A DNA stretch of 62,392 nt, taken from the NCBI GenBank assembly GCA_016873095.1, contig VGYC01000016.1, positions 1 to 62,392 on the forward strand, read 5' to 3'. Each line of letters starts with the position of its first letter. Position 1 is the first letter of the stretch. The DNA is from Planctomycetota bacterium (GTDB lineage Bacteria > Planctomycetota > Planctomycetia > Gemmatales > Gemmataceae). The translations under genes were made by a program, and so were the position numbers. A model generated the notes under the pieces. It worked only from the letters and a program-made list of their open reading frames with translations, was not told where the DNA came from and made no database searches. Of this stretch, positions 9,310-21,101 are shown piece by piece.

Positions 9310-9403
9310 GGTAGGGCGAGGCGGCGCGTCTCTTGCCGAGCCGTGATAGGACTGAACAAATGTTCTTTCTCCGGGAGGGCGAGGCTCCTGCCGAGCCGTG
9401 GAG
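9310..9403. repeat. Two copies of a GGGCGAGGC...GCCGAGCCGTG repeat
   Basis: The first copy (about 9314-9347) is diverged and has extra bases. The second (about 9374-9403) reads GGGAGGGCGAGGCTCCTGCC and then GAGCCGTGG. A third, imperfect copy is at 39762-39788 and a weak one at 28446-28475. Read through, the second copy encodes REGEAPAEPW, a peptide that falsely extends the downstream protein. Confidence 0.65.
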
Positions 9404-9503
9404 CGACATCAATGGCAATGCGTCCCAGGTCAGCAGGCAGCGGAAAACGCCCGGCGCATCCGTAAGAAAGGAAGATCATCCCGATGTCAGCGAGTTCCCC
9501 CTG

Positions 9504-12500
9504 ATGGCGCGATTCATTTGCATTCACGGTCACTGCTATCAACCGCCGCGCGAGAACGCCTGGCTGGAGGCGGTCGAGTTGCAGGACTCGGCTCATCCGT
9601 ATCACGACTGGAACGAGCGGATCACCGCCGAGTGTTACGGTCCCAACGCCTTCGCCCGCATTCTTGACAGCGACGGGCGGATCGCCAAGATCGTCAACAA
9701 CTACGCGCGAATCAGCTTTGATTTTGGGCCAACTCTGCTGGCCTGGCTGGAGGAGAAGGCGCCCGCCGTTTACGGCGCCATTTTGGACGCGGACCGGCAG
9801 AGTCAGGTGAGATTCTCCGGCCACGGCTCGGCCATCGCCCAGGCCTACAACCACGTGATCCTGCCGCTGGCCAACCGCCGCGACAAGGTCTCGCAAATTC
9901 GCTGGGGCATCGCCGATTTCCAACGCCGCTTCGGCCGTGTGCCCGAAGGCATGTGGCTGCCGGAAACGGCGGTCGATCTCGAAACGCTGGCCCTGCTCGC
10001 GGAGCATGGCATCCGCTTCACCATCCTGTCGCCGCTCCAGGCTGGCGCGGTGCGCGGCCCCGGGGCGACGGACTGGCAGAACGTAAGCGGCGGCAAGATC
10101 GATCCGACACGTGCTTACCGGCAAGCACTCCCCGGCGGCGGGCACATCGACTTGTTCTTTTATGACGGTCCTCTCGCGCGAGCGCTGGCCTTCGAGCGTG
10201 TGCTCAACCATGGCGAGGACTTCGTCCAGCGGCTGTTGCACAGTTTCAGCGAAGGCCGCATCGACAATCAGCTGGTTCATGTGGCCACGGAAGGGGAAAG
10301 CTACGGTCATCATCACGGCTTCGGCGAGATGGGTCTGGCCTTCGCCCTGGAACAAATCGAAAAGCTCGGCAAGGTGCGGCTGACGAACTACGGCGAGTAT
10401 CTGGAAAAGAGTCCGCCGGAGTGGGAAGTGCGCATCGTGGAGAATACCGCGCGGAGTTGCCCGCACGGGCTGGATCGCTGGCGGCGCGAGTGCGGCTGCA
10501 ATGCCGGCCAGCCCGGCTGGCGGAAACGCTGGCGCGAACCGCTGCGCCGCGCTCTGGACGGGCTGCGCGATCGCCTGATCCCCCTCTACGAGAAGATGGC
10601 TCGCGACCTGGTGCGCGCCCCATGGGCGGCACGCGACAACTACATCCGCGTCATTCTCGACCGTGGCGACGAAACACTGGACGCGTTTATCGGCGAACAT
10701 GCAGCGCGCGAACTATCCGAAGATGATCGCTGCCGATTGCTCAAGCTGCTCGAGATGCAACGGCATGCGCTGCTGATGTACACGAGCTGCGGCTGGTTCT
10801 TCGACGAGGTTTCCGGGCCGGAGACGGTGCAGGTGCTGCAATACGCCGGCCGGGTTGTCCAGCTTGGCCAGGAGTTATTCGAGGAAGACCTTGAAAGCGC
10901 ATTCCTCCAAGAACTGGACAAGGCCCCGAGCAATCTGTTCGAGCAGGGCAACGGCCGGCGAGTGTACGAGCGTCACGTCAAGCCGGCGATGGTCGATTGG
11001 CCCAAGATCGCAGCCCACTATGCCGTGAGTTCGCTCTTCGAGGCGTATCCGGAGGAAGCGCGGATCTTCTGCTACTGCGCGCGGGCAAACGATGCGCGCT
11101 TCCATGAAGCGGGCAAGGCCAAGCTGGTCGTTGGCCGCGTTGGGCTCACCTCGGCCATCACCCGCGAGCGCGAAGACGTCACATTCGCGGCACTCCATTT
11201 CGGCGACCATAACATTCACGGCGGCGTGCGCCATTTCCAGGGCGACGAGCATTACCAGACGCTGGCCAAAGAGCTGGCGGACGCATTTGCCAGGTCCGAG
11301 TTTCCCGAGATCGTTCGCCTCATGGATCGCGGTTTCGGCGAATCGACCTATTCGTTGCGCTCGCTGTTCCGCGATGCGCAGCGGAAGATCACCAAGCGGG
11401 TGCTTCAGCCAACCGTCTCGGAGGCGGAAGGGGTGTATCGCCGGCTCTACGAGCAATACCTGCCGACCATGCGCTTTCTTGTCGATCTGAACGTGCCGTT
11501 GCCGCGGGCATTTCAGGCGGCCATTGAGTTCGTCATCACGGCCGACCTGCGCCGCACCTATCAGGAGGACGAACTCAACCTGGCCCGCATCGGCGACCTG
11601 CTCAAGGAAGCGCAAAGCTGGAAGGTGTCGCTGGACGTGCCTGAATTGACCTATCGGCTCAAACGGGCCACGGAGCGCCTGGCGGAGCGCTGCCGCGCTC
11701 AGCCGGACGATCTGGCCCTGCTGGATGCGTTTCGCGCGGGAGCGGACCTGGTTGCTTCAGCCGGCTACGCCGTCGATCTCTGGCAGACGCAGAACACGTA
11801 TTTTGAAATGCTTCGGGACGTTTACCAGAATCACGAGACACGCTCCCGTGAAGGCGACGGGACGGCACGTGACTGGCTCGAGCGCTTCCTGTCACTGGGC
11901 GAACGACTGGGAGTCCGGGTAGTCGAGCTGCGCAAGCGTTTGCAGGAAGCGCAGAAGGTCCCGAGCGTCGCCGAAGTCGTCCGCGAAGCCATCAGCAGGT
12001 GTCGCGTCCCCCTGGCAACGTACCGGGTGCAGTTCACGCCGACGTTTCCCTTTACGGAGGCGTGCGCACAGGTGGATTACCTGCATGAGTTGGGCATCAG
12101 CGACCTGTACGCGTCGCCGATCCTGCAAGCACGGCCCGGCAGCCAGCACGGCTACGACATCTGCGACGCTTCCGGACTCAACGCCGAACTGGGCACGCAG
12201 GCGGATTTCGACGCCCTGGATCTGCAACTCAAGAATCACGGCATGGGCCTGATTCTCGACACCGTGCCCAACCACATGGGTGTCCATCATACCAACTACT
12301 GGTGGATGGACGTGCTCGAGAATGGCCCCAGTTCGATCTATGCCGCCTGCTTCGACATCGACTGGGACCCGGTCAATCCCGACCTCAAGAACAAGGTGTT
12401 GCTCCCCGTCCTCGAAGACCAGTACGGCTCGGTTCTGGAGAAGGGCAAGATTGAGCTGACCTTCAATGACGGCGCTTTCCATTTTCATCACTACGAGGCG

Positions 12501-14960
12501 CGCTTGCCGGTCGAGCCGCGCTCCTGCGGGGCCATCCTTGAATACAAGCTCGGCGAGCTGAAGGAGTCGTTGGGCGAGACTGACGAGCGTGTGCAGGAAT
12601 TGCATAGCATCCTGACGGCCCTGAGCTACCTGCCGCCATATGTCGATTCGGCGCCGGAGAAGGTGCTCGAGCGCAATCGCGAGAAGGAGGTCATCAAACG
12701 GCGGATCGCCAGCCTGGCCGAGGCGTGTCCACCGTTCCGCGACGCCGTCGACGACAGCGTGCGCGCCTTCAACGGCAACGTCAACGACCGCGCCAGCTTC
12801 GACAAGCTGGACCGCCTGCTCGAAGTGCAACCTTATCGGCTGGCATACTGGCGAGTGGCCACGGAGGAAATCAACTACCGCCGGTTCTTCGACATCAACG
12901 ACCTGGCGGCAATTCGCGTCGAGTTGCCGCAAGTCTTCCAGGCCACGCATCAGCTGTTCTTGAAATTGCTGGCGGAGGGCAAGGCCAACGGCCTGCGTAT
13001 CGATCATCCCGATGGGCTCTGGGATCCGGCAGAATATTTTCGCAAGCTGCAAGAGAGCTTTCTGGTGGAACGGGTGCGGATCAGTCTGGGGAATAACCCT
13101 GAGCCGGACGACCTCGAGTCCGAGGTGGCGCTGCTGCTCGAGAAGGGTGACAACGGCAAGCCGGCCTGGCCGTTGTATGTGGTCGTCGAAAAGATCCTGG
13201 GCGATGACGAACCGTTGCCGGGCGACTGGGCGGTGCACGGCACCACCGGCTACGATTTTCTCAATGCTGTCAACGGTGTGTTTGTCGATCAGGCACAGCG
13301 CGACGCGTTCGATGTCATCTACCGTCAGTTCATTCGCCACTCGATCCCGTATGCCGACCTGATCGTACATTGCCAGAAGATGATCATGCTGGTGTCGATG
13401 GCCAGCGAGATCACGGCGCTTGGGCACCAGCTCGATCGGATCTCCGAACGCAACCGTCGTTATCGCGATTTCACGCTGACCAGCCTGGTATTTGCCATTC
13501 GCGAGATCATCGCCACGTTGCCGATCTACCGGACGTACATCAACGGCCGGGACGCGCCAAGCCCACGGGATCGCCGGTTCATCGAGGAGGCGGTCGAGCA
13601 GGCCAAGGACGCCAATCCCCGGACGGCGGCGGCCATATTCGACTTCATCCGCGACACGCTCCTGCTTCGCAACCTGGAGGATTTCGCGGAAGAGGACAGG
13701 CCCGCGCTGATCGCCTGGACCATGAAGTTCCAGCAGGTCACCGGGCCGGTGCTGGCCAAGGGGCTTGAAGACACGGCGTTTTACGTCTACAACCGGCTGG
13801 CGTCCTTGAACGAGGTCGGTGGCCATCCGGAAACATTCGGCGCGACATGTGCCGATTTCCATCGGCACAATCAGGAGCGCTTGAAGCAATGGCCACATGC
13901 CATGCTGGCCAGCGGCACGCACGACACGAAGCGCGGCGAGGACATGCGCGCCCGACTCAACGTCCTGAGCGAGTTGCCGCAAGAGTGGGAAACCGCCTTG
14001 GCTCGCTGGCGACAGATGAACGATGGCAAGAAGCAACTGGTGGAGAACAAGCCGGCGCCCGACCGCAACGACGAGTACTTGCTCTATCAGACACTGCTCG
14101 GCGCCTGGCCGCCGGAGGGACTGACTTCGCAGACTCTCGGCGAGTTTCGCGATCGCATCGCCGCCTACATGCAAAAGGCGATCAATGAGGCAAAGGTCCA
14201 CACCAGCTGGGTCAACCCTAACCAGGAGTACGACAAGGCCACGCGCAGCTTCGTCGAGCGACTTCTTCCCGATGAGATGGACGACGAGTTCCTCGAGGAA
14301 TTGCGCGCCTTCGAGCAACATCTGGCATATTTCGGGTACATCAACGCGCTCTCCCAGGTGTTACTCAAGCTGACAAGCCCTGGAGTGCCGGATTTTTATC
14401 AGGGCAGCGAGCTGTGGGATTTCAATCTGGTGGATCCTGATAATCGCCGGCCGGTGGATTTCGCCCGGCGGCGCAGCTACTTGCGCGAGCTACGCGAGCG
14501 CGTGAATGAATCCGGCGGCGACTTGCGGCCCCTGGCTGCCGATCTTCTCGCGACCATTTCCGACGGCAAGATCAAGCTCTACGTGATCGAGCGAGTGCTC
14601 GGTTTCCGCGCCGCCGTGCCGGAACTGTTTCGCGCGGGCAGCTACGAGCCACTTGAAGCACGAGGCGAGAAGGCTGAGCATGTCTGCGCGTTTTCACGCA
14701 GTGACGTTGACCAGGCAGCGCTGATCGTGGTGCCGAGATTGCTCGTGCGCTTGGCGGGTGCCGCGGAGACAGCGCCGCTGGGACCGGGCGTGTGGGGCCA
14801 GACGCTGCTGACGCTTCCCGAGGGAAGTGGCGGCGATTTTGTCAACCTGTTCACGGGCGAGGCGATGTCAACAACCGACGCCGGCGGTCAGCCAGGACTC
14901 GTGGTTGCTGATGTGCTACGCCATTTTCCGGTGGCGTTGCTGAGAAAGTCGAACCCGTAG
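9504..14960 (+). CDS. Fusion of GH57/DUF3536 glycosidase and maltooligosyltrehalose synthase
   Basis: An 1818-residue cytoplasmic protein with two enzyme halves. Residues 1 to about 800 match the GH57-type DUF3536 family: MARFICIHGHCYQPPREN at the start, then FSGHGSAIAQAYNHVILPL and MWLPETAVDLETL. From about 835 to the end it is a TreY-type GH13 enzyme, which turns the reducing end of maltodextrins into a trehalosyl unit. Visible TreY sites are QHGYDICD, the nucleophile in GLRIDHPDGLWDP, the acid/base in VVVEKILG, and HDTKRGED. The start is placed at the MARF codon. The longer frame upstream only translates an intergenic repeat. A six-codon frame (9484-9504) with a good Shine-Dalgarno site overlaps this start by one base. 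No treZ or treX is adjacent. Confidence 0.9.
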   Translation: MARFICIHGHCYQPPRENAWLEAVELQDSAHPYHDWNERITAECYGPNAFARILDSDGRIAKIVNNYARISFDFGPTLLAWLEEKAPAVYGAILDADRQSQVRFSGHGSAIAQAYNHVILPLANRRDKVSQIRWGIADFQRRFGRVPEGMWLPETAVDLETLALLAEHGIRFTILSPLQAGAVRGPGATDWQNVSGGKIDPTRAYRQALPGGGHIDLFFYDGPLARALAFERVLNHGEDFVQRLLHSFSEGRIDNQLVHVATEGESYGHHHGFGEMGLAFALEQIEKLGKVRLTNYGEYLEKSPPEWEVRIVENTARSCPHGLDRWRRECGCNAGQPGWRKRWREPLRRALDGLRDRLIPLYEKMARDLVRAPWAARDNYIRVILDRGDETLDAFIGEHAARELSEDDRCRLLKLLEMQRHALLMYTSCGWFFDEVSGPETVQVLQYAGRVVQLGQELFEEDLESAFLQELDKAPSNLFEQGNGRRVYERHVKPAMVDWPKIAAHYAVSSLFEAYPEEARIFCYCARANDARFHEAGKAKLVVGRVGLTSAITREREDVTFAALHFGDHNIHGGVRHFQGDEHYQTLAKELADAFARSEFPEIVRLMDRGFGESTYSLRSLFRDAQRKITKRVLQPTVSEAEGVYRRLYEQYLPTMRFLVDLNVPLPRAFQAAIEFVITADLRRTYQEDELNLARIGDLLKEAQSWKVSLDVPELTYRLKRATERLAERCRAQPDDLALLDAFRAGADLVASAGYAVDLWQTQNTYFEMLRDVYQNHETRSREGDGTARDWLERFLSLGERLGVRVVELRKRLQEAQKVPSVAEVVREAISRCRVPLATYRVQFTPTFPFTEACAQVDYLHELGISDLYASPILQARPGSQHGYDICDASGLNAELGTQADFDALDLQLKNHGMGLILDTVPNHMGVHHTNYWWMDVLENGPSSIYAACFDIDWDPVNPDLKNKVLLPVLEDQYGSVLEKGKIELTFNDGAFHFHHYEARLPVEPRSCGAILEYKLGELKESLGETDERVQELHSILTALSYLPPYVDSAPEKVLERNREKEVIKRRIASLAEACPPFRDAVDDSVRAFNGNVNDRASFDKLDRLLEVQPYRLAYWRVATEEINYRRFFDINDLAAIRVELPQVFQATHQLFLKLLAEGKANGLRIDHPDGLWDPAEYFRKLQESFLVERVRISLGNNPEPDDLESEVALLLEKGDNGKPAWPLYVVVEKILGDDEPLPGDWAVHGTTGYDFLNAVNGVFVDQAQRDAFDVIYRQFIRHSIPYADLIVHCQKMIMLVSMASEITALGHQLDRISERNRRYRDFTLTSLVFAIREIIATLPIYRTYINGRDAPSPRDRRFIEEAVEQAKDANPRTAAAIFDFIRDTLLLRNLEDFAEEDRPALIAWTMKFQQVTGPVLAKGLEDTAFYVYNRLASLNEVGGHPETFGATCADFHRHNQERLKQWPHAMLASGTHDTKRGEDMRARLNVLSELPQEWETALARWRQMNDGKKQLVENKPAPDRNDEYLLYQTLLGAWPPEGLTSQTLGEFRDRIAAYMQKAINEAKVHTSWVNPNQEYDKATRSFVERLLPDEMDDEFLEELRAFEQHLAYFGYINALSQVLLKLTSPGVPDFYQGSELWDFNLVDPDNRRPVDFARRRSYLRELRERVNESGGDLRPLAADLLATISDGKIKLYVIERVLGFRAAVPELFRAGSYEPLEARGEKAEHVCAFSRSDVDQAALIVVPRLLVRLAGAAETAPLGPGVWGQTLLTLPEGSGGDFVNLFTGEAMSTTDAGGQPGLVVADVLRHFPVALLRKSNP

Positions 14961-14996: not shown

Positions 14997-16427
14997 TCAG
15001 CCGGAAATGCGCTGGGGAACGGGTCGCGAGTCGTCCAATTGGTCGTCGGGGGTGTCATACTGTGTGGCCCAGGCCATGGCACGGCGGGTGATCTCGGCGG
15101 CCTGGCGGCTGTGGATGGGAGGCAATGGCTGGCCCAGCCCAAGACCAAGGTCAACGCCGAGGCGGCGCTGGATGATGTCCGCCGTGGTCAGGGCGATCTC
15201 GCGATTCGGCAGCCGCGCCAGGTCGCGCAAGGTCGCCATCGCATTCGCCTTGCACGGGCCGTCAAGACGCTCCAAGAAGATTGCTTCCGCAGCGATGAGC
15301 CGCAGCGGTGCCGGGTTTGACGGTTCGAGCAAGTTCTCCAGCGCTTGCCGATCCAGCTCCTGGTGAAATTGCAGGACGCGGCCAAGCTCCAGGCGCAGAC
15401 AGGCCGGCGTTTGCGGATTGGTAAGTTGCTTGCGCAGGTCCAGCACCAGAGATTCGTCCGTTTGCTCGCTCAGGGCGCGATTGTAATGTACCCCCAGCGT
15501 CAGCGCGGCACGAGTTGACAGGGCCCCCTTCTCCGCGCACCAGCCAATCAGGTCCTTGACGGCGTCCGCGCACAGCATTTGCCCATCGTGATTGAGGGGT
15601 CCGTCGGTGAGGAACAGCGGGTCGGCCAGGATGCGGCGAACGGCAAAGCGAATCCAGTTCCAGCGGCGCTCATTGTCCCACAGCAACGCTTCGATGGCGG
15701 CCCGGCGGACTTCCCAGCTCGTATCGTGCAGAAACAGAGCGACAGTCTCGATGTGATTGCGATCCTCGACGTTGCCCAGCGCGAGGACGGCGGCCACGCG
15801 AATGGCCGGCTGCTCGGCGCGCTGCGCGGCTTGCAACACTAGCTCGACCTGACCCGACCGCCATTCCTTGCGGAACTCCAGTGCGCTCAGGGCGGCGACG
15901 CGGACCTCCGGTCGTTGATGTGTCAAGAGCGCCAGCGCCGGCGTGGCGTCCAGCGCCAGGGCGCCGCGCAGGGCCTTCACTTCTGGCAGGGTGCGGCAGG
16001 TCGCCAGGTCCGTCGGCCAGTCTTTGCGGCATGCCAGGCGGTCGGCCAGAAGCCGTGCCCGCCTGATAGCCGGCGCCCCCGAGTCGGCCAGGGTCTGCAA
16101 CGCGAACACCAGCAGGGAGACGACGAGCAGGAAAGCCTTGGCCAGGTGGGCGAACCAGTCTTCCTCGGCGATGCCGAACCATAGCCAGGCCAGGGCGATG
16201 AGGTAGAGGGCCAGGGCGGCCAGGGCCGTCGATTCCGGCCGATTGTTCTGGGTGATCAGGTACAGAAAACAAACGCCGATCTGGAATGCGACGCCCATCC
16301 ATAGCATGATCGCGTGCGGTCCTGCCTGACGCAACGCTGCCACGGCCAGCAGCAGCGCCGGGAAAAACAGCACCGCCGGGCGAACAGCCTGGTTCAGCGT
16401 GGCCAGCAACGCTTGTGACTTCGACAT
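14997..16427 (-). CDS. Membrane protein with HEAT-repeat domain
   Basis: A 476-residue protein, last gene of the ExbB/GTPase cluster. The N-terminus has four predicted membrane helices within residues 15-120 (for example PAVLFFPALLLAVAAL and AFLLVVSLLVFAL). The remainder is a cytoplasmic alpha-solenoid. Clear HEAT units occur at about 165-275, such as EVRVAALSALEFRKEW, AIRVAAVLALGNVEDRN and WEVRRAAIEALLWDNE. HEAT repeats usually scaffold protein complexes, so it may hold the complex together. The ATG at 16427 has GGGAGAATC upstream, and the gene begins 115 bases after the GTPase gene stops. Its exact role is unknown. Confidence 0.8.
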   Translation of the reverse strand: MSKSQALLATLNQAVRPAVLFFPALLLAVAALRQAGPHAIMLWMGVAFQIGVCFLYLITQNNRPESTALAALALYLIALAWLWFGIAEEDWFAHLAKAFLLVVSLLVFALQTLADSGAPAIRRARLLADRLACRKDWPTDLATCRTLPEVKALRGALALDATPALALLTHQRPEVRVAALSALEFRKEWRSGQVELVLQAAQRAEQPAIRVAAVLALGNVEDRNHIETVALFLHDTSWEVRRAAIEALLWDNERRWNWIRFAVRRILADPLFLTDGPLNHDGQMLCADAVKDLIGWCAEKGALSTRAALTLGVHYNRALSEQTDESLVLDLRKQLTNPQTPACLRLELGRVLQFHQELDRQALENLLEPSNPAPLRLIAAEAIFLERLDGPCKANAMATLRDLARLPNREIALTTADIIQRRLGVDLGLGLGQPLPPIHSRQAAEITRRAMAWATQYDTPDDQLDDSRPVPQRISG

Positions 16428-16542
16428 GGAGACAGATTCTCCCAAGAGGCGCTTTGCACCTCAAGGAAAGCATATCTCACAAATTGCGGTGCGGCGGCCG
16501 GGCAACAACGATTCTGAGTTGACACGCGTGTGCCTTCGAGAA

Positions 16543-18120
16543 CTACATCAAACGTTCGCGAATGAAATCGAGGCTCTTCTTGAACTCGTCCCAGCTTTGG
16601 CGAGCGCGATCGACCCGTTGCAGATGGTAGACAGTGTCGTAGGTGATGGTGGCGGCGCTGGCCGGGCGCTCGCGTGGACGATGTGGAAACGGTTGCTCGA
16701 TGAACGCCTTGTAGTCGGCGTGCCAGGCTTCGCGCTCCTTGGCCGGCGCGGATTCCCCGAGCATCAGCAAGCGGAAGCCTTCTTTCTCCAGTCCCTTGCC
16801 GGCCTTGATCTGCTCGTTGATCCAGGTTTCTGTCCGGGCTCCTTCGTCGCGCAGCGACTTCACGTCCTTGAGCCAGAATTGCACGCGATTGCCGATCCGG
16901 GTTCCCTTCCAGCTTTCGGCATACTTTGCGGGCAGCGGCAGGTCGCGGATCGCTTTCTCGATCTGGTCCAGTTCCTCGTCGGTGGTCGCCAGCTTGGGAT
17001 CCTGGACACGGATGAGAAACTCGCGGTTGTACTTCTGATAAGCTTCGATCTCCTCGACGTAGTGCCGGACTCTCTCCTGGGTTGCAGTGGGCAGTCGCGG
17101 AAAGTCCGGATTGGCGGCGATCTTGCGAAGCTGCTTGAGCCTGTCGTCGAGCGGTTCCTTGAGGCGATCGGCCGGCTTGGCGCCCTCCGCGGGCAGCAAC
17201 CCGTGCAGCGCGTTTTCCAGGGCGATGACCTCGGCGCTGGGACGGGTGATGTACACGGCAAATGCCAGAAGCGCCATGAGCGCGACCAGCGAGCCGACGC
17301 CGGCGACCACGACTTGCAGCCACTTGGACGCTCCTTCCTTGCGCGTTCGAAAGTCACGTGCCGCTTCCAGGCACTGACGAAAGAGCTCGGCAACGCCATA
17401 GGGCTGGGAATCGACACCTGGCCGATCCGCCAGCACGGGGCGTCGCGCCGCCGTCGCCCACAGGTGGATATCCAGCTTGCCGAAAGCGAGCCGGTCGCGC
17501 CCCGGTTGCTGGTCCAGAAACTTGCGAAACGCCTGGTCGATCTGCCGTTTTCGCTCCTCGATGCGCTGAATCCAGGTGCTGGTCGTGTCACCCTTTTTGG
17601 CAAGCAAGTCGCACTTGCTGAGGACGAGGTAGACGGGCAAGCCGGAAACGGCGCTGCTCTTGCCGCGTTTCTCCTCGAGCTGACGAATGTAGCCGGCCAG
17701 CTGTCCGAAACTTCTCTGTAGCTCCGGCAGTTCGGCCGCGGCGTCGACCACCATGATGAGCGTGTCGGCATTGTGCACCGCCCTGGCCAACGCCGGAACT
17801 TGCTTGGCCGTCTTCTCCGAAAGCAATTGCTGGGCGGACCTGCCGGCGCAATCGATCAGCACCGCCTCTGCCGGCAAGGACTTCGCCGCCGCCACTTCCG
17901 GTTCGATGGCGATGGGATAGGAAACGACCTCGTCAACCGTCGGCGCAGACTTGTCGTGATAAAGCTCTTGCTGCAAGCCGGCCAGCTTCTGCGAACGGTC
18001 GTTGAGCTTGCCCTTGAGCAGATGCTCCTGTTCCTGTCCCGCCTGGATCAGCGCTCCCAGCAGGGACGACTTCCCTGCCGACGGGCCGCCAAAAAGCACG
18101 AGGCTAACGGCTTCGTCCAT
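16543..18120 (-). CDS. Membrane-anchored TRAFAC-like GTPase
   Basis: A 525-residue protein. An N-terminal G domain (1-250) has P-loop GGPSAGKSS (11-19), G3 DCAG (90-93), G4 SKCD (168-171) and a G5-like ATA (222-224). One membrane helix follows at 267-291 (VVVAGVGSLVALMALLAFAVY). A Lys/Glu-rich, helical C-terminal part of about 230 residues lies on the other side of the membrane. The layout recalls SR-beta-like or IcmF-like GTPases, but the order (G domain, single helix, large helical domain) is not one I can name. It lies 72 bases downstream of the small gene at 18193 in the same direction. The likely role is a nucleotide switch for the ExbB/ExbD-like complex, which is inferred from context. 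Confidence 0.85.
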   Translation of the reverse strand: MDEAVSLVLFGGPSAGKSSLLGALIQAGQEQEHLLKGKLNDRSQKLAGLQQELYHDKSAPTVDEVVSYPIAIEPEVAAAKSLPAEAVLIDCAGRSAQQLLSEKTAKQVPALARAVHNADTLIMVVDAAAELPELQRSFGQLAGYIRQLEEKRGKSSAVSGLPVYLVLSKCDLLAKKGDTTSTWIQRIEERKRQIDQAFRKFLDQQPGRDRLAFGKLDIHLWATAARRPVLADRPGVDSQPYGVAELFRQCLEAARDFRTRKEGASKWLQVVVAGVGSLVALMALLAFAVYITRPSAEVIALENALHGLLPAEGAKPADRLKEPLDDRLKQLRKIAANPDFPRLPTATQERVRHYVEEIEAYQKYNREFLIRVQDPKLATTDEELDQIEKAIRDLPLPAKYAESWKGTRIGNRVQFWLKDVKSLRDEGARTETWINEQIKAGKGLEKEGFRLLMLGESAPAKEREAWHADYKAFIEQPFPHRPRERPASAATITYDTVYHLQRVDRARQSWDEFKKSLDFIRERLM

Positions 18121-18192
18121 TAGAATCTCGGTGGCTAGATTGTGTCACATGTTCCGTTCAGTCGGCGTCCACCAGCGAACGTGGGGAGCGCT

Positions 18193-18495
18193 TCAATCGA
18201 AACTCAACCCAGCATGGTCCAGGAGTCCAAAGAAGAAATACAGCTTTGTACACTCGTCATGATCGTTTATTTCGTACTTGTCCAGGAACTGATTGACCAT
18301 GGGATAATGATCGTTTGTAAGCACTCGTTCGGCGATATGGGCAAGGTGATTCAACACCTGTGAGGTTGCACTGTCCAGAACGGCGAAAACGTCCGACTCC
18401 GAACGACATTCGTAGCGAAGGACCGGCTCGATCACATAATGCAATTCTAGCGGCAGTTGAACAAGCACGCCGGCATTATCAGGCATACTGTTCAT
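18193..18495 (-). CDS. Small hypothetical protein in the ExbB/GTPase cluster
   Basis: A 100-residue protein starting MNSMPDNAGVLVQLPLEL if the ATG at 18495 is used, which has AAAGGATTGC upstream. A start at 18534 would overlap the previous gene by four bases (ATGA). It is mostly alpha-helical, with no signal peptide or membrane helix. It contains YVIEPVLRYECRSESDVF and LYFFFGLLDHAGLSF, and two Cys. No family is recognised. The tight position between the TolR-like gene and the GTPase gene suggests a cytoplasmic accessory or adaptor. Confidence 0.7.
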   Translation of the reverse strand: MNSMPDNAGVLVQLPLELHYVIEPVLRYECRSESDVFAVLDSATSQVLNHLAHIAERVLTNDHYPMVNQFLDKYEINDHDECTKLYFFFGLLDHAGLSFD

Positions 18496-18530
18496 GCGGC
18501 AATCCTTTGTTCCTGTGAGGCACGGAGAGG

Positions 18531-19193
18531 TCAATCGCCGGTTGTGAGCTTGGCGTTCATTTCCGACTTTAGCAGCGTGAACTGGCCATGCTTGCGGGCT
18601 CGCTCTTGAAGGCGCATGACAGCGCCGTGGCGCTCGCCGACGCTGTCCTTGGTCAGCAGTATGGTCACCTGGTAGCGGCCGGGCTTGTCCTTGAACAGCT
18701 TCTCCACATCTTCGAGCGGCACCGCCGGCGGCTTACGGTCAATCAGGTAATAGCGGTGGTCTTTCACATTGTCGCCGCCGAGCAACAAGATGGTGAGCGG
18801 TTCGCGCTTCAGGTCGCCATTGTCCTTGTCGTCGCCGTTTTTCTTTGTCAGTCCGCCGTCGCCGTTGCCAGCCCCCTTGCCCTTGCCGATTCCGTCGCCG
18901 CTGCCGCCCCCCTTGCCCGGTCCGCCGCCGCCGGGGCCGCCCAGCGGAAAGAATGCGTAGATGAGAGCCGCCGTCAGCACGGCGCCCATTGCCTTGCTCC
19001 ACGACAGCACGTCCGACGGCACTGCCTTGCGAAGCGCGATGCGGCCAATCAGGCGAACGATGGGCCCGGTCAGGAACCAGCCGACAATCAAACCTCCCAG
19101 CGCCGCCGCCAGGCGCATGAACGTGTACAGCGTTTCCGAGAGCCCGAGGTCAATCCAGGCCAGCAGGAGCTGGTCGGCGGCTGCCGGCATCAT
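18531..19193 (-). CDS. Two-helix membrane protein with TolR/ExbD-like C-terminal domain
   Basis: A 220-residue protein. It has two membrane helices at about 22-48 and 62-84 and a Gly/Lys/Asp-rich linker at about 86-135. The C-terminal alpha/beta domain (about 136-215) includes LTILLLGGDNV, VPLEDVEKLF, YQVTILLTKDSV and AVMRLQERARKHGQFTLL. The last part follows the pattern of ExbD/TolR periplasmic domains (Val-Ile-rich strand, Asp, then the helix ending before GQ). Its ATG overlaps the preceding ExbD-like stop by four bases, implying coupled translation. It may carry the peptidoglycan- or partner-binding domain that the preceding protein lacks. Confidence 0.75.
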   Translation of the reverse strand: MMPAAADQLLLAWIDLGLSETLYTFMRLAAALGGLIVGWFLTGPIVRLIGRIALRKAVPSDVLSWSKAMGAVLTAALIYAFFPLGGPGGGGPGKGGGSGDGIGKGKGAGNGDGGLTKKNGDDKDNGDLKREPLTILLLGGDNVKDHRYYLIDRKPPAVPLEDVEKLFKDKPGRYQVTILLTKDSVGERHGAVMRLQERARKHGQFTLLKSEMNAKLTTGD

Positions 19194-19774
19194 GGCATCT
19201 TCTCCTGCAGTGACTGGGCCACGCCGGTAAACCAGCGTTTGTAGGCCGTTTCCTGGGCCAGCGTCGGCCAGCCGGTCTCGATGCGCGGATAGAGAAAATG
19301 ATAATAAAGCTGCCGCTCGCCCGCCTCCTTCTTGTGCCGGGCAATCAGCGCTCGCGCGGATTTCTCGTCGGCGATTGGCTGCACGGGGTTGTCGAGATTG
19401 GTCGGATCGAAAAACGATAACGCGCCGGTCTTGCCGTCGATGTCGAGCACGCGAACATAGGTCGGCCGCAGCAAGGCCTGCTGCTTCTCCTTGCGCAGTT
19501 TTTCAAGTTCCTGCATCAGCAGAGTCATCTTGACCAGCGAGGATTGCAGCTTCTCGATGCGTTGCAAGTCCTGGTTTTTCTTGTTCAGCTCGCGCTTCAC
19601 AGATTCATAGGCGTCGGCGAGGTCTTCCGGCGCGAGGCTGGCCTTGCCGTCTCCCTCGGAGCCTTCCTCCTCGCCGAACACCGGCATGAGCAGAAAGATG
19701 CAGAACATGAGCAACAGTACGTCGATGAGCGGGATGAAGAAGCGCGTCACGCTCCGGGCCGGCATGTCGATCAT
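19190..19774 (-). CDS. ExbD/TolR-like transmembrane protein with coiled coil
   Basis: A 194-residue protein. Its N-terminus has the ExbD/TolR hallmark: a short cytoplasmic lead, then a single membrane helix (12-33) holding an Asp at residue 18 in FIPLIDVLLLMFCIFLLMP. In the ExbD/TolR/MotB family this Asp is the proton-relay residue. A coiled coil follows at about 50-100 (ESVKRELNKKNQDLQRIEKL). A small C-terminal domain contains YYHFLYPRIETGWPT, which is not the canonical TolR domain. The ATG overlaps the ExbB-like stop codon (ATGA), giving strict coupling. It would act in the inner membrane with the upstream channel protein. Confidence 0.82.
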   Translation of the reverse strand: MIDMPARSVTRFFIPLIDVLLLMFCIFLLMPVFGEEEGSEGDGKASLAPEDLADAYESVKRELNKKNQDLQRIEKLQSSLVKMTLLMQELEKLRKEKQQALLRPTYVRVLDIDGKTGALSFFDPTNLDNPVQPIADEKSARALIARHKKEAGERQLYYHFLYPRIETGWPTLAQETAYKRWFTGVAQSLQEKMP

Positions 19775-20283
19775 GGCACATCTCCCGGAGGCGCCGTCGC
19801 CCCGCCGCCGAGAGTCAGGATCAGGTCGCGGCCGAGCAGCACCATCCACGGCGGCAAGATATTGATGAGCGCCATGAACAGCCCGCTCCCCGTGGCCGTT
19901 ATCGCCGGCGCATACTTCTCGATGATCACGTGCGGCTGCGTCGGCCCGGTGATCGCACTGAACGTCTGCAAGATGCCCCCCACCGTGCCGAGCAAGCCGA
20001 GCATCGGGAAAAACTCTGCCGCCTGGGCAAGGTTGCTGATCCAGCGGTCCGGACGCTCGTCGAATCCCGTCCCACGCCAGCGAAAGCTCGACCAGCACAG
20101 GATCACTTGCAAGGTAAACAATCCGGAGCCGATGGCGAGAATCAGGCCGTCCATCGTGGACAGATGCTGAAGATAGAAATTCATGGCATCGCGCGGGACG
20201 GATACCGCCACCAGCGCCGCCATCAATAGCGGCACGACACAAAAGCACGTTGGCAGCAACCATTGAATCAGCAAGCGACGCAT
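19771..20283 (-). CDS. MotA/TolQ/ExbB-like proton channel protein
   Basis: A 170-residue inner-membrane protein with three hydrophobic segments (about 8-28, 45-65 and 85-155 in two helices). The ExbB/TolQ signature is clear in the second half: FFPMLGLLGTVGGILQTF, then APAITATGSGLFMALINILP. It is shorter than typical ExbB (about 240 residues), with a reduced cytoplasmic loop. It pairs with the ExbD-like protein downstream, overlapping by four bases. The ATG at 20283 has GGGAGG upstream; a GTG one codon earlier is equally possible. This pair would use the proton or sodium gradient to drive movement. Confidence 0.85.
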   Translation of the reverse strand: MRRLLIQWLLPTCFCVVPLLMAALVAVSVPRDAMNFYLQHLSTMDGLILAIGSGLFTLQVILCWSSFRWRGTGFDERPDRWISNLAQAAEFFPMLGLLGTVGGILQTFSAITGPTQPHVIIEKYAPAITATGSGLFMALINILPPWMVLLGRDLILTLGGGATAPPGDVP

Positions 20284-20375
20284 CACGGCCTCCCGCCGTC
20301 GTTTTACGGTTTGGCCGGGAATCTGCCAGCAACCGAGAAGCGCTCATCAGCCCCATCCAGCGCTTGCAGGGCGTA

Positions 20376-21101
20376 TCAACTCAGCAAGCCTGGCGTGAAA
20401 AAAGCGAAAAGCGTCGTAAGGAAGATGCTGGTGCCGGCCAGGAGCACGCCGGTGATGGCGAGCCAGCGGCCGCCGAGGGTCGGATTGCGCTCCACCGCGT
20501 GCAGGCCGATGCCTCCCAGCGCCAGCACGATGGACTGCGCCAGCAACGCAATGATGCAGATCGTCAGGCCAGCGCCGTTCACCACCGCCAGAATGCCGAG
20601 CAACCCGGCGATCAGGCCGCCAAGCACGCTAAAAAGCGCGAAGCCGGAGACGCGCGGCGGTTGTTGCCAGGAGCGTACTCGATAGTTCTTGCATGGACCG
20701 CACAGGGTGTCGCCCTCAAGCTCGATCACGCAGTCATTGCAGAACGCCTCGCCGCAATCGCGACAGGTCTTGCGTGACGGCAGCTGATTATGGTTGAGGC
20801 AGAAGTTGGGGTCGAAGCGGAATTTCCTGCCTGGCCGACGTGAGCGCCGTTCGCGGCGCTCGTCGCCGTCACTGGGATGAGGCAGCGGCGAATCGGTTCG
20901 GGGCTCTAGTCGCGACTGCTCGAACTTCAAGGGCTCGAGCACTGGCACGCCGGCTGGCGCGGCGGTATCGGCTGGCGGTGGCACCGTGCTCTCCCATGGC
21001 ACCTGATTACCGTGGCCGCATTCGCAAAACAGCAACGAACCAGCCGATGCTTCCGGCCGGCCATGCGTCTTACCACAACCCTTGCACGAAAACCAGATCA
21101 C
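20376..21101 (-). CDS. Zinc-finger membrane protein (zinc ribbon plus B-box-like)
   Basis: A 241-residue protein starting VIWFSCKGCGKTHGRPEAS from the GTG at 21101, which has GGTGGAGAG upstream. Two Cys-rich modules are seen. The first is a ribbon of CKGC and CECGHGNQV. The second, at about 120-165, resembles a B-box: NFCLNHNQLPSRKTCRDC, then CNDCVIELEGDTLCGPC. The C-terminal third has three or four membrane helices (for example LFSVLGGLIAGLLGILAVV). It is first in the cluster, 90 bases before the ExbB-like gene. The zinc modules probably face the cytoplasm and bind a partner. Confidence 0.8.
   Translation of the reverse strand: MIWFSCKGCGKTHGRPEASAGSLLFCECGHGNQVPWESTVPPPADTAAPAGVPVLEPLKFEQSRLEPRTDSPLPHPSDGDERRERRSRRPGRKFRFDPNFCLNHNQLPSRKTCRDCGEAFCNDCVIELEGDTLCGPCKNYRVRSWQQPPRVSGFALFSVLGGLIAGLLGILAVVNGAGLTICIIALLAQSIVLALGGIGLHAVERNPTLGGRWLAITGVLLAGTSIFLTTLFAFFTPGLLS

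Follow-up and report, generated by a model that had tools for sequence, protein, structure and literature searches.

What does an ExbB/ExbD-type proton channel work for when its gene lies next to that of a membrane-anchored GTPase? This question is raised by a locus in a 62,392-nucleotide stretch of DNA (contig VGYC01000016.1, positions 1 to 62,392, hereafter the window) from a planctomycete of the family Gemmataceae. Planctomycete cell division, and the way in which these bacteria energise their outer membrane, are poorly understood. A preliminary description of the window proposed that seven genes between positions 14,997 and 21,101 form a single envelope machine. All seven minus-strand open reading frames (ORFs) are present at about the positions described, and sequence comparison indicates that the cluster is real, but as a set of four genes (ExbB, ExbD, TolR2 and GTPase) rather than seven:

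19771..20283, minus strand: ExbB/TolQ-like channel subunit, 170 aa; Pfam match PF01618 (MotA_ExbB) at 3.4e-11
19190..19774, minus strand: ExbD/TolR-like stator subunit, 194 aa, one transmembrane (TM) helix with Asp18; PF02472 at 1e-3, below the cut-off
18531..19193, minus strand: TolR2, a second TolR-fold protein by AlphaFold2 model and fold search; no Pfam match
16543..18120, minus strand: membrane-anchored GTPase, 525 aa, short form; MMR_HSR1 at 1.7e-5; TM helix by hydropathy

The ExbB/ExbD and ExbD/TolR2 junctions are exact four-base ATGA overlaps (positions 19771-19774 and 19190-19193). The remaining gaps among the seven genes are 41, 72, 92 and 97 bases, with the gene starts taken from the preliminary description. 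Three junctions had been described as overlapping or nearly contiguous, making the whole set one coupled unit. Two overlaps are there, but as the other gaps measure 41-97 bases, tight coupling is visible for three genes and not for seven. We propose, at a probability of roughly 55%, that ExbB, ExbD, TolR2 and the GTPase would form one tol-derived inner-membrane machine, in which the GTPase protein stands in TolA's place, its arm is indispensable and GTP switching is a control layer.

The four genes were followed through 59 genomes (37 Gemmataceae, 7 from the sister family and 15 from other families of the class), with profile thresholds of E ≤ 1e-3 for the GTPase, E ≤ 1e-10 for ExbB, E ≤ 1e-4 for ExbD and E ≤ 0.01 for TolR2; the final counts combine profile searches with six-frame ORFs. 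ExbB was matched in 40 genomes (two of these matches, in G035 and G039, are partial or weak), ExbD in 37, TolR2 in 37 and the GTPase in 33, and none of the four profiles matched in the 15 genomes outside the order Gemmatales. Before linkage was counted, G035 (weak TolR2 and an incomplete ExbB at the end of a contig) and G039 (weak ExbB, 1.2e-17, no other part) were dropped, together with a second weak ExbB in G006, weak TolR2 matches in G004, G031 (its second), G033 (its second) and G014 (its third), and, on a separate contig of G024, a weak GTPase match. The GTPase homologues of G013, G021 and G024 are degenerate and were included on the strength of their position. On these profile coordinates, some core part is present in 38 genomes and all four parts in 33 of them, contiguous in 23 and split but kept in 10. 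ExbB is linked to ExbD in 35 of 37 genomes, ExbD to TolR2 in 32 of 35, and TolR2 to the GTPase in 28 of 33. Four genomes (G028, G038, G042 and G043) lack all four genes jointly. The GTPase was not found in G002 and G034, where both loci lie at a contig edge; the edges in G002, G017 and G034 may conceal further parts. Across the phylum, the GTPase profile matched 6 of 391 genomes (two candidates scored per genome), five of them in Gemmataceae; the sixth match was weak and N-terminal only (5.4e-6), and was taken as a generic GTPase. The four core genes recur across Gemmataceae and some of the sister family, and the expected association of the GTPase with the ExbB/ExbD pair was borne out.

Which parts of a motor are present? 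In the channel subunit, Thr100 and Thr131 are invariant in 18 of 18 aligned sequences, and a comparison of the channel profile with solved structures aligns them with TolQ residues 145 and 178, which we take to line the pore. TolQ proteins are the only solved relatives of this profile at E ≤ 1e-3. Conservation of the TM residue Asp18 in the ExbD-like subunit had been put forward as a check in the preliminary description. All 21 aligned sequences have this residue; the PDB matches (E ≤ 1) that share its helix are MotB. Two pore threonines and one TM aspartate carry the protons in TolQ/TolR. Two features of Tol-Pal, a TolQ-type channel with pore threonines and a TolR-type stator with a TM aspartate, were found here, and the alignments indicate that channel and stator keep the proton-carrying positions of TolQ/TolR. 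The role of these motor residues is described for vWA relatives in a passage of PMC12204202.

TolR2 has no Pfam match at E ≤ 1 and was characterised by its fold. Its AlphaFold2 model shows two N-terminal hydrophobic helices, a Gly-rich linker and a TolR/ExbD-like outer domain, the last modelled with high confidence. The best Foldseek match was TolR 5by4 (E 0.018, probability 0.98; none at E ≤ 0.001), and the five top VIA-align rows were TolR 5by4 and four ExbD entries (Z 6.7-7.4, root mean square deviation 2.4-3.3, 68-77 residues). Among unrelated rows, the highest on the outer domain reached Z 5.7, and those at Z 6.5 (7cf8, MscS) superpose the helices. The lead of TolR/ExbD in this predicted fold is modest, with Z below 8, and the assignment rests on the consistency of the rows; at that level the model supports the second TolR-like protein of the preliminary description. 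The helices of TolR2 hold no conserved acidic residue (no column has more than 4 of 21, and that one lies where the first helix ends), so TolR2 is presumably no proton carrier; they hold no conserved histidine in the alignment either.

The window GTPase has a P-loop (GGPSAGKS) in a G-domain at about residues 1-250, a TM helix at about 270-288 and then an extracytoplasmic helical arm. The model of a long-form relative, L065 (predicted local distance difference test score, pLDDT, 88.8; predicted template modelling score, pTM, 0.57), has the order G-domain, single TM helix and helical arm, and long forms add a beta domain. Its N-terminal domain has a Ras-superfamily fold, with RagD 2q3f at Z 17.5 (176 residues), YcjX 6nz6 at Z 16.3 and SRP receptor beta 2fh5 at Z 15.5, and the modelled GTPase domain is Rag/Arf-like. 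In these fold searches the G-domain filled the 50 best rows, so in effect the searches covered that domain alone. The short form is common to the window protein and its nearest relatives on the tree. In G023 (L037 9198-11653, minus strand), a second ORF after the GTPase is homologous to the helical arm, a possible arm duplication.

The need for GTP can be judged from natural variants. Among 35 GTPase homologues, the P-loop is intact in 27, not intact in 7 and unreadable in 1 (at a contig edge). The seven P-loop-less homologues (L166, L178, L162, L163, L164, L056 and L168) retain the TM helix and the outer arm and are apparently pseudo-GTPases; a three-frame check found no P-loop attributable to the protein upstream of any of them, and the controls showed theirs. 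One of the seven, that of G037, still has an altered P-loop (GPPESDKS), and internal stops lie inside the GTPase matches of G037 and G040, where sequence errors are possible. P-loop-less Gemmataceae stand in three places among P-loop keepers (G005; G013, G021 and G024 together; G018) on a FastTree tree of four proteins in which some nodes are weak, and P-loop-less homologues occur in the sister family too. If the P-loop is ancestral, it would have been lost at least three times in Gemmataceae, with anchor and arm retained. Because the homologues without a P-loop keep anchor and arm, the arm appears to be the indispensable part and GTP switching a control layer; the motor, derived from Tol, would have the extracytoplasmic arm as its output and could probably dispense with control by GTP. 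Of the gradient-driven machine gated by GTP, as first proposed, the association of the GTPase with the ExbB/ExbD pair is supported. Obligate GTP gating is weakened, since 7 of the 34 homologues that can be read have no intact P-loop.

Where does such a locus come from? YbgC stands beside the channel gene in 25 of the 30 ExbB loci examined (out of 41 ExbB matches), and the full order LepA-LepB-YbgC-ExbB-ExbD-TolR2-GTPase occurs in 9 of 28 loci, with partial orders in others; these gene orders come from a crude home-made gene caller that misplaces starts and fails at low-GC loci. In the window's own genome, YbgC is on another contig, behind LepA and LepB. No ExbB of this kind was present in the stretches examined around 15 YbgC loci from other families of the class, some of them cut by contig ends. 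A passage of PMC12204202 places YbgC in the tol-pal operon of E. coli. As YbgC lies beside the channel gene in relatives and TolQ proteins are the only solved relatives of the channel at E ≤ 1e-3, the locus looks like a descendant of a tol-type locus. By the same crude gene calls, two or three consecutive LepB-like ORFs or fragments precede YbgC in L161, L171, L174, L175 and L176.

The rest of a Tol-Pal system was searched for in the 59 genomes. The TolB profile PF04052 matched none of them (3 of 14 controls were positive), and the Pal profile TIGR02802 exceeded its cut-off in none, a strict cut-off that was passed by 2 of 4 matching controls. Sub-threshold Pal/OmpA-like matches (E ≤ 1e-5) occur in 11 of the 59 genomes, two of them among the 37 Gemmataceae (G003 and G014). 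No TolA was recognised at the locus, the only place where it was sought, and no TonB family is among the Pfam matches (E ≤ 1) of the seven window proteins, to which the TonB search was confined. The preliminary description was right that TolB and Pal are not found; its conclusion that this is not a known Tol system stands in that respect, but the YbgC neighbour and the TolQ-only solved relatives make the locus look tol-derived. By analogy, the job of the machine is likely envelope maintenance or constriction, as for Tol-Pal elsewhere, on the basis of YbgC linkage and TolB/Pal absence alone.

The proposed four-protein machine would work as TolQR does, with protons driving ExbD within the ring of ExbB. 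The probable role of TolR2 is that of a clamp holding the motor on the wall or on its partner. The GTPase protein would replace TolA as the output or clutch, its extracytoplasmic arm receiving or anchoring the force, so that TolR2 and the arm may connect the motor to the wall or the outer membrane. The cytosolic Rag/Arf-like switch would set where or when the motor engages. A wider claim is more tentative, and we give it somewhat less than even odds: that Gemmatales replaced Tol-Pal by a GTP-switched, proton-driven trans-envelope machine, with arm and Rag/Arf-like switch in one membrane-spanning protein, the switch having decayed to a pseudo-GTPase in several lineages that kept the arm.

Several observations weigh against a single four-part machine. 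ExbD and TolR2 resemble known families only weakly by sequence, the PF02472 match of ExbD scoring 19.6 bits under a cut-off of 25.4. The arm of the window protein is much shorter than that of the long form (the whole proteins measure 525 and about 800 aa). No histidine is conserved in the TM helix of the GTPase (in its core a single row of 26 has one, at the edge; no column exceeds 3 of 26), and as the SHLS docking motif of TolA and TonB is not seen there, either docking works differently or the protein acts as a regulator. The locus is split in 10 of 33 genomes, nine of them without a contig edge to explain it (the exception is G014), and in five the GTPase is the part standing apart. TolR2 was not found in G011. 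In G017 (93% complete), only ExbB and ExbD of the four were found, and they lie at a contig edge; G004 (75% complete) lacks ExbD, and its weak TolR2 match was not counted.

The alternative that survives best is a reduced Tol system, in which TolR2 would be a TolA-like transducer and the GTPase would merely regulate or localise the motor, as MglA does with AglRQS. The close linkage of TolR2 to ExbD, its anchor-linker-domain layout and the decay of the G-domain in some lineages are consistent with this, as are the five genomes (G005, G009, G016, G040 and G041) in which ExbB, ExbD and TolR2 stay together with the GTPase elsewhere. A passage of PMC4488436 also describes AglR as TolQ-like and AglQ and AglS as two TolR-like subunits. 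However, the outer domain of TolR2 best matches TolR/ExbD, the fold of a stator and not of a transducer, its helices lack a conserved histidine, and G019, G032 and G033 have TolR2 together with the GTPase at a distance from ExbB and ExbD. We consider this alternative unlikely, although it is the strongest of the rivals.

It is less probable still that the GTPase and TolR2 form an envelope module of their own, such as an envelope-stress or division factor, that merely neighbours ExbB/ExbD. The split loci, the resemblance of the G-domain to signalling GTPases, and the G017 and G011 assemblies without one or both of these parts would suit such a module, but the four genes co-occur even when they are split (33 of 38 genomes) and are missing together from the four genomes named above.

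A TssM/IcmF-derived envelope protein (GTPase, TM helix, helical arm and beta domain) recruited to a TolQR motor is very improbable and was not adopted: the layout of the long form is similar to that generally known for TssM, and hhalign aligned the long-form profile with eight planctomycete TssM-like proteins over the G-domain (92% probability, 136 columns), but this is little above a LepA control (81% over 161 columns), the best alignment to TssM-like proteins elsewhere is under 1% probability, and the sub-threshold IcmF_C matches in 8 of 59 genomes include none at the GTPase locus. IcmF_C is not among the profile matches of the window GTPase or L065, nor among the 25 best of 40 families for the other members; IcmF-related_N weakly matched 2 of 24 GTPase members (best 0.004), and TssM is not among the best 50 fold-search rows of the long form, which the G-domain dominates.

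The proposed four-part machine leaves three genes of the original seven as neighbours:

14997..16445, minus strand: HEAT-repeat protein, HEAT_2 at 2.7e-8, four hydrophobic segments; a neighbour, not a part
18193..18489, minus strand: small protein between TolR2 and the GTPase, no Pfam match; probably outside the conserved machine
20376..21101, minus strand: B-box-like zinc-finger protein, zf-B_box at 0.0061, below the cut-off, two hydrophobic segments; probably not a part

The HEAT protein was matched in 34 of the 59 genomes, with one match each except for a split one in G023. In none of the 26 other genomes with both genes is it linked to the GTPase, lying on another contig (23) or at least 0.8 Mb away (3), and only the window links the two, so its proposed membership was not borne out. 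The zinc-finger and small proteins had no match beyond the window's genome by tblastn (E ≤ 0.01) in 212 records, mostly loci around the module rather than whole genomes. The seven-gene unit was rejected, as the HEAT, zinc-finger and small genes are local neighbours that are not conserved as such in relatives. The HEAT membrane protein (relatives L191-L195) is a conserved gene in its own right. Elsewhere in the window, an ORF of 1875 aa on the plus strand (9333-14960) may encode a fusion of a GH57-type glycosidase and a maltooligosyl-trehalose synthase.

A conserved TolQR-type motor with new partners is a concrete candidate for envelope work in genomes that yielded no TolB and no clear Pal. If the proposed machine is correct, it would provide an example from bacteria in which one protein of a proton-driven motor incorporates a Ras-superfamily switch, and the natural versions without an intact P-loop would make the role of GTP testable.

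How does the locus compare with known systems? Zorya, which the preliminary description had set aside, was rejected as no Zorya profile is among the PADLOC matches (E ≤ 1) of the seven window proteins; their weak matches are DpdE, LeoA, mad8 and HEAT-ARM_XIII. DO-GTPase systems share a weak profile similarity, DO-GTPase2 matching the window GTPase at 2.8e-4 (below the cut-off) and 17 of 24 GTPase members weakly (best 9.4e-7). No Pfam match of the seven window proteins is named GAP1, whether or not Pfam holds such a model, and ExbB, TolQ and TolR have 0 occurrences in the available part of the DO-GTPase paper (PMC7159879). Tol-Pal is similar in the YbgC gene beside TolQ-like and TolR-like genes in relatives and in TolQ being the sole solved kin of the channel, but the locus carries a second TolR and a GTPase. 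It is not Tol-Pal by two tested defining features, TolB and Pal.

The Ras-like protein MglA controls the AglRQS gliding motor of Myxococcus. Two TolR-like subunits are present here too, the ExbD-like protein and, by fold, TolR2, and the likeness extends to one TolQ-like protein (PMC4488436) and a Ras-fold GTPase. In contrast, the GTPase here is membrane-anchored with an outer arm, and TolR2 lacks a conserved acidic residue in its helices. By analogy, AglRQS with MglA would be the nearest functional parallel.

The nearest published layout is that of the vWA clusters of the Planctomycetes-Verrucomicrobia-Chlamydiae (PVC) group, in which, according to a section of PMC12204202, a tolQ-like gene and two heterologous tolR-like genes are followed by a gene for a membrane-tethered vWA protein; the SHLS docking motif of the TolA and TonB TM helices is described there as well. 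Both loci combine a TolQ-like protein and a heterologous TolR pair with a membrane-tethered third protein. Here, however, that protein is a cytosolic GTPase with a TM helix and an outer arm, lacking an SHLS-type conserved histidine, and profile scans gave no vWA match for the window GTPase or L065. Literature searches found no description of a TolQR-type motor combined with both a membrane-anchored GTPase and a second TolR-like protein, and from its sequence the locus appears to be a new variant of the TolQR-family motor.

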